Source: a virus. From it: a DNA stretch of 50,358 nt. The stretch's first letter is position 1. Every line of letters starts with the position of its first letter. This document shows positions 3,074 to 42,225 of the stretch, piece by piece. The DNA lies in the IMG/VR virus record IMGVR_UViG_3300030106_006546, positions 1 to 50,358 of that record, one strand, 5' to 3'. The notes under the pieces were generated by a model. The model saw only the letters and a program-made list of their open reading frames with translations, did no database searches and was not told where the DNA came from. The translations under genes were made by a program, and so were the position numbers.

Positions 3074-3241
3074 ATGTACATTGAATTGACGGATGACCAG
3101 GCAGACGTGCTGCTGAACCAAGTAGCCGACTGGAAGCACAAAGTCGTGAAAGGTAGTGATCTTCAACGACAGCTTCAGGAAATAGAAAAGGTTTTGGTTT
3201 TGGCTATTTTGCAAAAAGAGGGAGGCATCAATTATGGATAA
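3074..3241 (+). CDS. Small hypothetical protein (55 aa)
   Basis: Begins MYIELTDDQADVLLNQVADW and ends EGGINYG. It is an amphipathic helical protein of the kind often seen as a short early phage gene. I chose the ATG at 3074 because the longer upstream frame runs through the promoter region. It overlaps the next gene by 8 nt (ATGGATAA arrangement at 3234-3241), so translation is probably coupled. First gene of the rightward operon behind the CGACACGG box. Function unknown. Confidence 0.65.
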   Translation: MYIELTDDQADVLLNQVADWKHKVVKGSDLQRQLQEIEKVLVLAILQKEGGINYG

Positions 3242-39294: not shown

Positions 39295-39321
39295 GGGCTC
39301 CTTTTGGAGCCCTTTTTTTTT
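39295..39321 (+). terminator. Rho-independent terminator after the oxygenase gene
   Basis: GGGCTCC (39295-39301), TTTT loop, GGAGCCC (39306-39312), then nine T. A textbook intrinsic terminator that separates the oxygenase gene from the next promoter. Confidence 0.92.
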
Positions 39322-39532
39322 GCATTTTTTTCTACTTTTTTACATTTATTTGCATAAAAGTGTATACAACGACACGGGATTATGAGACTATATACATGTC
39401 GGCGAGGGACGCATCAGACAGACCGACAGCCAGCGGGCAAAGCACTGACAACCGAGAGGCTCAGGGAATCACGACTTACTAGAGTGCACTCAATTCCGAG
39501 TGCGCTGCACTAAGTCAACGAGGAGACAAACA
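39322..39532 (+). promoter_or_regulatory. Promoter and structured leader of the ribozyme operon
   Basis: TTTACA (about 39340) and TATACA with an 18-bp spacer are a possible sigma-70 promoter, and the CGACACGG box (39370-39377) follows at the expected start site. The leader of about 140 nt holds a TGTCGG/CCGACA pair (39397-39402 with 39423-39428). It also holds a long hairpin with stems GACTT/AAGTC (39473-39477 with 39512-39516) and AGTGCA/TGCACT (39483-39488 with 39506-39511). The ribosome site GAGGAG follows. No hammerhead core lies here. Confidence 0.55.
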
Positions 39533-39877
39533 ATGAAATTTCGTACTGATTTTGTTTTTGAAGAAGCAACTAGCGTCAATCAGATGAAGAACCTGAAAGA
39601 AGCTGTGCTATTTGACGCCTTCAATCCTAACGGTCTGGTTGCTCGCAAGCGAAAAAACGACGCAGTAATTGCTCAATTGATTGATGACGGTGTTGTGCCT
39701 CAAGGCTGGTTTTTGGCTTATGGCTCTTACGCTGATCATTATGTTGAAAATATGCACAAGCTCGCCAAAAAGAAGCGAGTCAGCGGCAGAGAGCAACGAT
39801 TTGCGCGAAAGTTTTTACTTCGAGACATTGAAAATGTTGAAGCAAAAATTGCCGAGGTTGCAACACAGGCCGCGTAA
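39533..39877 (+). CDS. Small early protein before ribozyme 1 (114 aa)
   Basis: Begins MKFRTDFVFEEATSVNQMKN. It has a helical, Lys/Arg-rich middle (KKKRVSGREQRFARKFLLRD) and an Ala-rich end. It has a strong GAGGAG ribosome site. First gene of a three-gene operon that is cut by hammerhead ribozymes after it and after the second gene. I do not recognise the family. The separate RNA structures suggest that early proteins are expressed at differing levels. Confidence 0.75.
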   Translation: MKFRTDFVFEEATSVNQMKNLKEAVLFDAFNPNGLVARKRKNDAVIAQLIDDGVVPQGWFLAYGSYADHYVENMHKLAKKKRVSGREQRFARKFLLRDIENVEAKIAEVATQAA

Positions 39878-39887
39878 GCGGCCCTAC

Positions 39888-39943
39888 CTTGACTGATGAG
39901 CCTGGTTGGTTACCAGGCGAAACGCTCTTCGGAGCGTCTCAAG
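39888..39943 (+). ncRNA. Type I hammerhead ribozyme 1
   Basis: Every conserved element is present. Stem I is CTTGA (39888-39892) / TCAAG (39939-39943). Core CTGATGA is at 39893-39899. Stem II is GCCTGGT (39900-39906) / ACCAGGC (39912-39918), 7 bp with a TGGTT loop. GAAA is at 39919-39922. Stem III is CGCTC / GAGCG (39923-39927 with 39932-39936) with a TTCG tetraloop and an A-T closing pair. The cleavage triplet is GTC at 39936-39938. Predicted cut: after 39938, leaving a 33-nt 5'-OH leader before the ATG at 39972. It starts 10 nt after the previous stop. Confidence 0.92.
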
Positions 39944-39971
39944 AAACCAACAACTGACCTAGGAGGTCACC

Positions 39972-40181
39972 ATGAAAACAACTTTCAACGGCTATCGAAT
40001 CACCATGTTGGCGGATGATCCTGCTGTCCGCCGTGTTGACCGGGAGGCACTTAAAAGTGCTGGTCTCGAGCGACGCTCATTTCAAAGTGAGCTGGAGGCA
40101 CAACTTGAGCTTCACATGAGTGACTTGGACGAGTCACGTTTTTACGTGTCCAAGACTTGGGCGGTGTCAGGGGTGCTTTGA
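39972..40181 (+). CDS. Small early protein between the ribozymes (69 aa)
   Basis: Begins MKTTFNGYRITMLADDPAVR and has REALKSAGLERRSFQSELEAQ. It ends SKTWAVSGVL. An excellent ribosome site (TAGGAGGTCACC) precedes the ATG. Flanked on both sides by hammerhead ribozymes. Function unknown. Confidence 0.7.
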   Translation: MKTTFNGYRITMLADDPAVRRVDREALKSAGLERRSFQSELEAQLELHMSDLDESRFYVSKTWAVSGVL

Positions 40182-40192
40182 ACCGTCTTTGA

Positions 40193-40246
40193 ACCCACTG
40201 ATGAGCTGATGAGATTTCAGCGAAACGCCCACAGGGGCGTCTGGGT
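40193..40246 (+). ncRNA. Type I hammerhead ribozyme 2
   Basis: A second complete hammerhead. Stem I is ACCCA (40193-40197) / TGGGT (40242-40246). Core CTGATGA is at 40198-40204. Stem II is GCTGA / TCAGC (40205-40209 with 40217-40221), with a 7-nt loop. GAAA is at 40222-40225. Stem III is CGCCC / GGGCG (40226-40230 with 40235-40239), with an ACAG loop and an A-T closing pair. The cleavage triplet is GTC at 40239-40241. Predicted cut: after 40241, giving a 28-nt leader before the ATG at 40270. Stems and loops differ from ribozyme 1, so the fold, not the sequence, is conserved. Confidence 0.92.
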
Positions 40247-40269
40247 ACATCAATTTAAGGAGACAAAAC

Positions 40270-40503
40270 ATGAATAGCACAGATCGTTATTGGAGAATGT
40301 GGTGGTCAAGCGGCGCCACCAAGCCCAGCTTCATCTACTCTGAAAAAGACCTGCGAATCGCCGCAAAAAAGTACAACTTTGATGCGGACACGGTCTTGAA
40401 TTATGGCGAGGACTACATGTGGGATGATGGGGTAACACCAAACAGTGAACCGTCAGACGATGAGATTTGGGGTGGTGTCATCGAAGAGCATGACGACAAG
40501 TGA
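40270..40503 (+). CDS. Small early protein after ribozyme 2 (77 aa)
   Basis: Begins MNSTDRYWRMWWSSGATKPS, and has VLNYGEDYMWDDGVTPNSEP with an acidic end (GGVIEEHDDK). Strong AAGGAG ribosome site 7 nt before the ATG. Last gene of the ribozyme operon, followed by an intrinsic terminator. Trp-rich and acidic, without a family I know. Confidence 0.72.
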   Translation: MNSTDRYWRMWWSSGATKPSFIYSEKDLRIAAKKYNFDADTVLNYGEDYMWDDGVTPNSEPSDDEIWGGVIEEHDDK

Positions 40504-40506
40504 TAG

Positions 40507-40531
40507 GGGAGCTACGGCTCCCTCTTTTTTT
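40507..40531 (+). terminator. Rho-independent terminator of the ribozyme operon
   Basis: GGGAGC (40507-40512) TACG GCTCCC (40517-40522), followed by TC and a seven-T run. It ends the plus operon; the convergent minus gene's stop lies inside this hairpin. Confidence 0.9.
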
Positions 40532-40718
40532 GTTTCTTCATCCTCTCAACGTACTCCAAGTACGGCTCCCCATACTTCTTCTCAAACCAGATCGCCCATG
40601 AGTATTTGCCGCTTGGCACCGTAGCACGACGCTTGTGCCATATCGCACGGGCGGCATGATACTTGATCTGCTCTGCCCATTCCCGCTCGTCTTCAGGTGA
40701 GGTCTGCAAGCCCATCAT
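40512..40718 (-). CDS. Small basic hypothetical protein (68 aa)
   Basis: Begins MMGLQTSPEDEREWAEQIKY, with a Trp-rich middle (KYSWAIWFEKKYGEP) and a Lys/Arg-rich end (KKQKKREP). It lies downstream of the methyltransferase gene and is probably co-transcribed with the replication cluster. Function unknown. Confidence 0.6.
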   Translation of the reverse strand: MMGLQTSPEDEREWAEQIKYHAARAIWHKRRATVPSGKYSWAIWFEKKYGEPYLEYVERMKKQKKREP

Positions 40719-40759: not shown

Positions 40760-41395
40760 TCAAAATAATGTATGCTGTCTTGTAGATTCGTAAATCCGTT
40801 CACACGCCATATAAAAATACTGCTCTTCTCGTTCTATACCGATAAATGATTTTTTGTTTTCTATACAAGCCACGCCCGTTGTACCGCTCCCCATAAAGGG
40901 ATCAACCACTAAGTCAACGTCAGAAGGTAGCTGGCGTAAACAAAAGCTCATAACACCAACGGGCTTCTGTGTTGGGTGCGTCCTAGGAATATGCTTCTCC
41001 ATCCTAATCATTCCGTTCCACAAGTAATCAATCTTGCGTACAGACTTGTTGAGATTAGTCCATGCCAGCTCACAGTCAGCGAAATCGCCGCTGTTTAACT
41101 TGTTCCATACTAGCCAGCACTTTGTCGGCGGCAGGGGATAGTAGTTTCCGCCAAAAATCACCTGGTATTTAGCCAAAGATCGCGCAAGGGCAATAGCCTC
41201 ACCTGCTATCTCGTCATCCCAGCCTAGGTTATCGTGAACGGCTGGAATGCCTTTACGCCTAGGACGCTTATCACCTCGCGTCTCCCCTATGCCATATGGC
41301 GGATCAGTAACTAGGGCATCAAAATGGCCTATGGTTGGTAATATATCTACACAGTCGCCTAGATATAGAGTGGCGCTATCGATGATTTCTTTCAT
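40760..41395 (-). CDS. DNA adenine-N6 or cytosine-N4 methyltransferase (211 aa)
   Basis: DPPY catalytic motif at residues 31-34, HPTQKPV at 140-146, and the cofactor loop DPFMGSGT at 165-172. The order DPPY then FxGxG fits a beta-class N-methyltransferase of restriction or orphan type. There is no restriction endonuclease beside it. Likely protects or marks phage DNA. It lies 57 nt downstream of the exonuclease gene in the minus operon. Confidence 0.92.
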   Translation of the reverse strand: MKEIIDSATLYLGDCVDILPTIGHFDALVTDPPYGIGETRGDKRPRRKGIPAVHDNLGWDDEIAGEAIALARSLAKYQVIFGGNYYPLPPTKCWLVWNKLNSGDFADCELAWTNLNKSVRKIDYLWNGMIRMEKHIPRTHPTQKPVGVMSFCLRQLPSDVDLVVDPFMGSGTTGVACIENKKSFIGIEREEQYFYMACERIYESTRQHTLF

Positions 41396-41451: not shown

Positions 41452-42225
41452 CTACCACAAATCATTGATATCGAACTCAGTGACTCCCTCGACATTAAAA
41501 GGTCGATAGATTCCCGCCTCCACACATGCCAACCCTACCGCTAACGCTTGCTCGTTTTGAGCATCACCATACGCAATCGCCTCCTCTGACAACGTATAGA
41601 CGGCGAAGGGGTACGGGTGTGTTTTCTCCTGCGCTAAGAAGTAGAACCGCTCCGTGGGCAAACCGACCGCCCTACACCCTGCCAAGTAGAATGCCGCTTG
41701 TTGGTGGTATCGGAAGGTGTTGATCGCGCCACGGAAGCCACGGGGTGAGGCGTCCCGGCAGGTTTTGAGATCCCAGATGTCGGACCCGGTGTGCCAGTCG
41801 AGCTTCCCTTTACATTGTTGATTGTTCCACATGAAACAAATCGTCAGCTCTACGTGGTGATCAGGCTGGGGAATATGGTCGCGCACAACCTCTCGTCGCT
41901 CCATGCATAAATCGTACAGGTCTTGCTTGACGGGTGTGCGATCACCCACAGTCTCAAGCCACTCAGCGTACTCTGCCTTACCAGCCTTGGTGCGCCGATC
42001 GACGACTGGCTCAATGGCGTACTCATCGAAAAACTTGTGATGCTCCAAGAACACGGAGTGCTGCACACGGCCCTCGAGGAGCGCAGGGGTCTCTTTGAAC
42101 ACGCCGTGCTTCCAAGTGTAAGGACACTTGGCGAGCGATGTCAGGTCATGACTACGCCACGCAGGGATCGATTCATAGGTGGGGTAGTCCAGGTTCTCGT
42201 AAATGCCCGGTTTGAAGTCCATCAT
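41452..42225 (-). CDS. RecE-like PD-(D/E)XK exonuclease (257 aa)
   Basis: Catalytic pattern GKLDWHTG, with D143, then WDLKT (D152-x-K154). An upstream GRVQHSVFLE and a YHQQAAFYLAG helix complete the RecE-like (DUF3799) nuclease fold. It would process double-stranded ends for phage recombination together with a strand-annealing or binding protein. It overlaps the DUF3310 gene by 4 nt and is part of the operon starting at 43172. Confidence 0.85.
   Translation of the reverse strand: MMDFKPGIYENLDYPTYESIPAWRSHDLTSLAKCPYTWKHGVFKETPALLEGRVQHSVFLEHHKFFDEYAIEPVVDRRTKAGKAEYAEWLETVGDRTPVKQDLYDLCMERREVVRDHIPQPDHHVELTICFMWNNQQCKGKLDWHTGSDIWDLKTCRDASPRGFRGAINTFRYHQQAAFYLAGCRAVGLPTERFYFLAQEKTHPYPFAVYTLSEEAIAYGDAQNEQALAVGLACVEAGIYRPFNVEGVTEFDINDLW

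Follow-up and report, generated by a model that had tools for sequence, protein, structure and literature searches.

The 50,358-nt stretch of viral DNA analysed here (the window) carries two predicted type I hammerhead ribozymes set between three small genes, in the order A - ribozyme 1 - B - ribozyme 2 - C, and the gene lying between the two ribozymes is a different one in the closest relative. The two ribozymes most likely cut the polycistronic A-B-C RNA into single-gene mRNAs. The motif, its placement, its covariation, the complementarity of its pseudoknot and the exchange of its neighbouring genes were all computed here. The window is a contig of an uncultivated tailed phage, with terminase, portal and head genes, a VapE-like primase/helicase and a RecE-like exonuclease. 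At the protein level its terminase shares 57-63% identity with that of the Pelagibacter phages HTVC027P and HTVC023P and that of Phage DSL-LC04 and 023Pt_psg01, and no type I hammerhead was found in the examined stretches of these four. The cultured-phage collection holds no recognisable DNA relative of the 5-kb stretch around the ribozymes, and the ribozyme sequence had no match in bacterial and archaeal genomes. The three-gene unit is flanked by two terminator-like hairpins, and the features of the region are as follows.

39295-39312, plus strand: intrinsic-terminator-like hairpin on the 5' side of the A-B-C unit
39362-39379, plus strand: conserved promoter-like element GTATACAACGACACGGGA, single copy in the window, with a core that recurs in relatives
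39533-39877, plus strand: gene A, open reading frame of 114 aa, 5' of ribozyme 1
39888-39943, plus strand: type I hammerhead ribozyme 1, predicted from pattern and stem scan, model R1, fold z and compensatory changes in relatives
39946-39951, plus strand: predicted pseudoknot 3' strand AACCAA, pairing with loop II UUGGUU (39906-39911); permutation test and covariation
39972-40181, plus strand: gene B, open reading frame of 69 aa with AGGAGG at 39961, the cassette between the ribozymes
40193-40246, plus strand: type I hammerhead ribozyme 2, predicted from pattern/stem scan, model R1 and fold z
40270-40503, plus strand: gene C, open reading frame of 77 aa, 3' of ribozyme 2
40506-40523, plus strand: intrinsic-terminator-like hairpin closing the A-B-C unit
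40760-41395, minus strand: DNA methyltransferase (N6_N4_Mtase), adjoining the ribozyme unit on the opposite strand
41452-42225, minus strand: RecE/exonuclease VIII-like gene, likewise adjoining the unit on the opposite strand

Gene A had no match in PHROGs or Pfam; among the related viral loci (given here as L numbers) it has relatives in L017, where a ribozyme follows, and in L167 and L168, where none does. Gene B belongs to no PHROGs or Pfam family and has no relative in the viral contigs. The relatives of gene C in L017 and L166 are 92-93% identical to it, and each stands behind a hammerhead of the ribozyme 2 type. The core of the promoter-like element is also present in L030, in L166 and twice in L167, preceding small genes in the last two, and no sigma-70 promoter consensus was found at 39362-39379. 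Within 39362-39530 the promoter-like ACAACGACACGGGA is followed by a structured-looking leader of about 130 nt; L017 and L166 have a related but altered hairpin near the end of this leader. Just 5' of ribozyme 1 comes a further hairpin, GGCCGC-GTAA-GCGGCC (39868-39883), whose loop contains the gene A stop codon; in L005, L167 and L168, genes that no ribozyme follows finish in comparable stop-codon hairpins.

Judged from its sequence, 39888-39943 encodes a complete type I hammerhead. The letters occupying exactly these positions are CTTGA-CTGATGA-GCCTGG(T)TGGTT(A)CCAGGC-GAAA-CGCTC-TTCG-GAGCG-TC, with TCAAG following the predicted cut. The initial annotation had placed a hammerhead here between a stop codon and the next ribosome site, and this was borne out: the motif lies between same-strand genes of a tailed phage, with the gene A stop TAA (39875-39877) on its 5' side and the Shine-Dalgarno sequence AGGAGG (39961-39966) between it and gene B. 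The core bases, said to be all present, are intact (CUGAUGA...GAAA...GUC), and the UUCG tetraloop described there caps stem III (CGCTC-TTCG-GAGCG). The claim of three closed stems needs amending: three stems do surround the core, but only II and III are capped, because in a type I hammerhead stem I is open-ended. The stem scan gives 5/6/6 pairs for stems I/II/III; stem II has 6 bp, or 7 counting the U-A closing pair, and stem III has 5 bp plus the A15.1-U16.1 pair. With the GUC triplet named in the same annotation, the predicted cut falls after C39938 (39938/39939), and the ATG at 39972 lies at the 33 nt from it that had been given. Calling the operon early, as that annotation did, goes further than the features observed, a terminator-like hairpin at either end and a conserved promoter-like element. 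Neither the loop II pseudoknot nor the exchange of genes described below figures in it.

Ribozyme 2 differs from ribozyme 1 in sequence, has stems of 5/5/5 pairs in the stem scan and would be cut after C40241 (40241/40242), 28 nt 5' of the ATG at 40270. Both copies have the type I core of CUGANGA, GAAA and an NUH triplet (as CUGAUGA, GAAA and GUC) and three stems, of which I is open and II and III are loop-capped in both the stem scan and the minimum-energy fold. Folding of 39884-39960 gives the hammerhead as the minimum-energy RNA structure (z = -3.1), and ribozyme 2 is likewise predicted to fold into one (z = -3.3). That the two hammerheads in the window are not due to chance is confirmed: the hammerhead pattern occurs twice in the window against none in 100 dinucleotide shuffles, and the closed type I motif is absent from 200 first-order Markov sequences, both strands included. 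Model R1 was built from 13 relatives, with ribozyme 1 among the training sequences and ribozyme 2 outside them; it scores 84.7 bits (E 1e-18) on the former, a training sequence, and 45.2 bits (E 8e-9) on the latter, which is not one. With its filters off, model R1 found no third hammerhead in the window, the next best score being 12.3 bits.

A search with the Rfam hammerhead models had been proposed as a check by the initial annotation, and it came out negative at gathering thresholds, with no match in the window (RF00008, RF00163, RF03152 and relatives) and, for the Rfam 15 hammerhead models, none in L005, L017, L023, L045, L046, L120, L136, L163, L166 and L171. We do not count this against the motif: the miss is a limit of the thresholds for such sequences. 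The top Rfam match to ribozyme 1 in a permissive scan is the RAGATH-1 hammerhead (RF03152), with 23.8 bits (E 0.09), far under its gathering score of 56.3, and the RAGATH-1 consensus differs from ribozyme 1 in having an upstream hairpin with AGGAG. Hammerhead_3 (RF00008) has the core in common and reaches 26.9 bits in the ribozyme 2 region in the permissive scan, under its gathering score of 48.5; its alignment there is a permuted type III frame that misfits the type I stems. Current Rfam thresholds thus overlook this hammerhead class in phage genomes, and therefore annotation pipelines that use them miss it.

Relatives found through the primase carry a hammerhead at the matching place in L005, L017 (which has two), L023, L039 and L045. 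In the 13-sequence alignment 98% of the pair cells are paired, and all three stems have compensatory changes, with two-sided changes in 11 of the 20 pairs. The cells with two-sided changes number 43, against 14.2 +/- 3.1 when shuffled. The alignment has a covariation score of 0.469; shuffling lowers it to 0.210, and sliding yields no more than 0.088. As compensatory changes preserve RNA structure and not DNA sequence, selection acts on the RNA.

The covariation extends to a pseudoknot at loop II of ribozyme 1, which the sequences of its relatives support. Hammerheads of types I, II and III are all known to form pseudoknots that join stems I and II (PMC3088659). In ribozyme 1 the AACCAA strand sits directly 3' of stem I. 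In the class whose stem-loop II measures 18-20 nt, 18 of the 26 different loops pair with their own 3' flank through at least four Watson-Crick bases, against 9.2 +/- 1.9 with permuted flanks, and none of 2000 permutations reached 18. A compensatory G-C to A-U change turns UGGU/ACCA into UAGU/ACUA in L023 and L045, and further loop/flank pairs in this class are UAGCU/AGCUA, UGGCU/AGCCA and UUGAC/GUCAA. Strong support is limited to this class; over all hammerhead shapes the test is weak (32 observed against 21.5 +/- 3.7). Ribozyme 2, with the loop UGAGAUU, showed no clear pseudoknot when one was sought. In the ribozyme 1 region of L017 (460-540) the minimum-energy fold is not the hammerhead, an upstream CUACCUU pairing with the AAGGAG ribosome site in place of stem I; this fold could represent an alternative state before cleavage.

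The position between stop codon and ribosome site recurs across phages. A motif scan of viral contigs gave at least 120 stretches, and placement was analysed for 120 distinct closed hammerheads collected from viral contigs, a sample and not a census. A start codon lies 8-60 nt past the predicted cut in 104 of these 120 (36% of random positions), and in 81 stem I has an ORF stop no more than 40 nt ahead of it (19% of random positions); 73 (61%) have both, compared with 6.7% of random positions. The median distance from predicted cut to start codon is 26 nt, and the distance from stop to stem I is most often 0 (31 of the 81 with an upstream stop). Their downstream genes are short, with a median of 77 aa, and almost none has a known function. 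Up to eight hammerheads occur per phage record, on one strand only, and the reversed control pattern is absent from the multi-hammerhead phage records. Two such records, L120 (51152 bases) and L163 (66620 bases), have about 7-8 hammerheads on one strand over some 4-5 kb, separating small genes.

Regarding mechanism, we infer cleavage, the ends of the products and an effect on stability and translation. The two ribozymes would self-cleave while the A-B-C accessory transcript is being made, giving three single-gene mRNAs. Each upstream piece would run a few bases past its stop codon, into the folded ribozyme, and bear a terminal 2',3'-cyclic phosphate, and each downstream piece would begin with a 5'-OH about 26-33 nt before the start codon, a leader barely long enough for ribosome binding. 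The likely benefit is that every small gene would stand alone, its stability and translation no longer tied to those of adjacent genes; we propose that genes could therefore be swapped between ribozymes while the operon stays intact. Tandem hammerheads native to phages self-cleave in vitro, and A. tumefaciens hammerheads do so in E. coli (PMC3088659). RNase E acts inefficiently on 5'-hydroxylated RNA, although it reaches many sites by direct entry, and 5'-OH ends made by a hammerhead are not efficiently phosphorylated in E. coli, the last point being unpublished data of the authors (PMC4191395). As RNase E cuts such RNA inefficiently, an altered stability of the pieces is plausible. Three points count against the proposed processing: 5'-OH products may lose stability where the host has RNase J, as in the glmS case; the ribozyme 1 region of L017 has the non-hammerhead minimum-energy fold noted above; and some related phages, listed below, lack the ribozymes.

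Comparison of the window with L017, its closest relative, locates the gene exchange. Identity is 92% over 39423-39950 and 91% over 40192-40714, and 39951-40191 is unrelated to 527-678 of L017, so that a different gene stands between the ribozymes. On the left, homology runs as far as the ribozyme 1 pseudoknot strand (39946-39951); on the right it resumes a single base ahead of ribozyme 2. L166 has a different gene again in front of ribozyme 2 and gene C, and a third hammerhead comes after these two. This third copy (3148-3201) has AAAA for GAAA, and therefore A at core position G12; it is possibly a slow or decaying ribozyme, to go by this substitution. Scans for the exact patterns located sequences like ribozyme 1 in 16 stretches and sequences like ribozyme 2 in 24; most of them sit between unrelated gene pairs, a typical ribozyme 2 junction being TAA-ACCCACTGATGAG. 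In many locus pairs the homology blocks stop at the ribozyme edges or within a few bases of them. Using a range of 1.5-5 kb and a 70% identity limit, we found that the proportion of differing gene neighbours per junction is 0.82-0.84 at hammerheads and 0.44-0.53 at nearby ordinary junctions. This contrast has p-values of 3e-4 to 6e-7, which are descriptive since the pairs are non-independent, the loci were chosen for their hammerheads and the gene calls are simple and approximate; it persists when the comparison is restricted to spacers of at least 25 nt. Breaks occur at both the 5' and the 3' ribozyme edge, depending on the pair, a pattern that would fit crossing-over within the ribozyme DNA and does not prove it. 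The ribozymes are also patchy, being present in L005, L017, L023, L039, L045 and L166 and absent in other relatives. As L010, L018 and other near relatives have the same replication module without hammerheads, and L167 and L168 have gene A without a ribozyme, the ribozymes are dispensable.

These exchanges raise the possibility that the ribozyme DNA is mainly a recombination joint, that is, a short repeated homology at cistron borders for swapping single-gene cassettes, with self-cleavage secondary or insulating. The ends of the homology blocks, the excess of differing neighbours and the unrelated gene pairs around very similar ribozymes all speak for it, as do the RecE-like exonuclease gene of the phage and the fact that the ribozyme keeps with the downstream gene in some pairs and with the upstream gene in others. 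However, the compensatory changes conserve RNA structure, not DNA, selection could retain working junctions after random recombination, and the comparison uses non-independent pairs of loci fetched for their hammerheads, with approximate gene calls; we regard this reading as possible though not probable. The same patchy occurrence, together with the A for G12 in the third copy of L166, could denote selfish or relic elements copied between junctions with no benefit to the phage. This is the least probable of the explanations considered here, given that cores are intact, pairs compensatory and the spacing to stop and start codons fixed.

Because the ribozymes lie within the leaders of genes B and C, they might alternatively be regulatory switches, with protein- or ligand-dependent cleavage controlling whether the gene after them is expressed. 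Ribozyme 1 relatives have their pseudoknot strand directly next to the ribosome site (AAACCAAGGGAG), and therefore folding and ribosome binding could compete. Yet the spacer consists only of stop codon, hammerhead and ribosome site, with no extra aptamer domain, and unrelated genes follow very similar ribozymes, which makes switching improbable. A broader idea, which we consider rather unlikely, is that phages have a plug-in gene system with hammerheads as its standard joints, providing at once a seamless linker from stop codon to ribosome site, independent mRNAs and a short homology for cassette exchange; if true, ribozymes shape the trade of phages in accessory genes.

Processing of the A-B-C transcript into single-gene mRNAs, the reading that we prefer, agrees with an earlier proposal. 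Perreault et al. in 2011 proposed that long phage transcripts are processed in this way (PMC3088659). Their clustered hammerheads are like those of the window in that several lie on one strand, flanking single small genes of varying identity; here two same-strand copies flank gene B, with phage genes around. The HHphage of haloviruses HF1/HF2, described in the same paper (PMC3088659), is also a phage hammerhead upstream of a start codon, at 13 nt, and a transcript 5' end maps near its cleavage site; it differs in having a variant core and an archaeal host and in preceding a helicase gene. The role of bacterial and phage hammerheads is called open in reviews (PMC6155905; PMC10085705). As hammerheads flanking changing prophage genes were published in 2011, the ribozymes of the window add to a known phenomenon. 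The consulted sections of the 2011 paper (PMC3088659) report neither a stop-codon/26-nt spacing rule nor gene exchange between near-identical flanks with breakpoints at the ribozymes. No paper on phage hammerheads as cassette borders, and neither the spacing rule nor single-gene replacement at ribozyme borders, was found in the literature searched, a set outside which preprints and most subscription papers fall. Cassette swapping is the most interesting addition to the known phage hammerheads, and the stereotyped position from stop codon to ribosome site, together with gene replacement at the ribozyme borders, makes it testable whether these ribozymes separate cistrons and whether they aid gene swapping.
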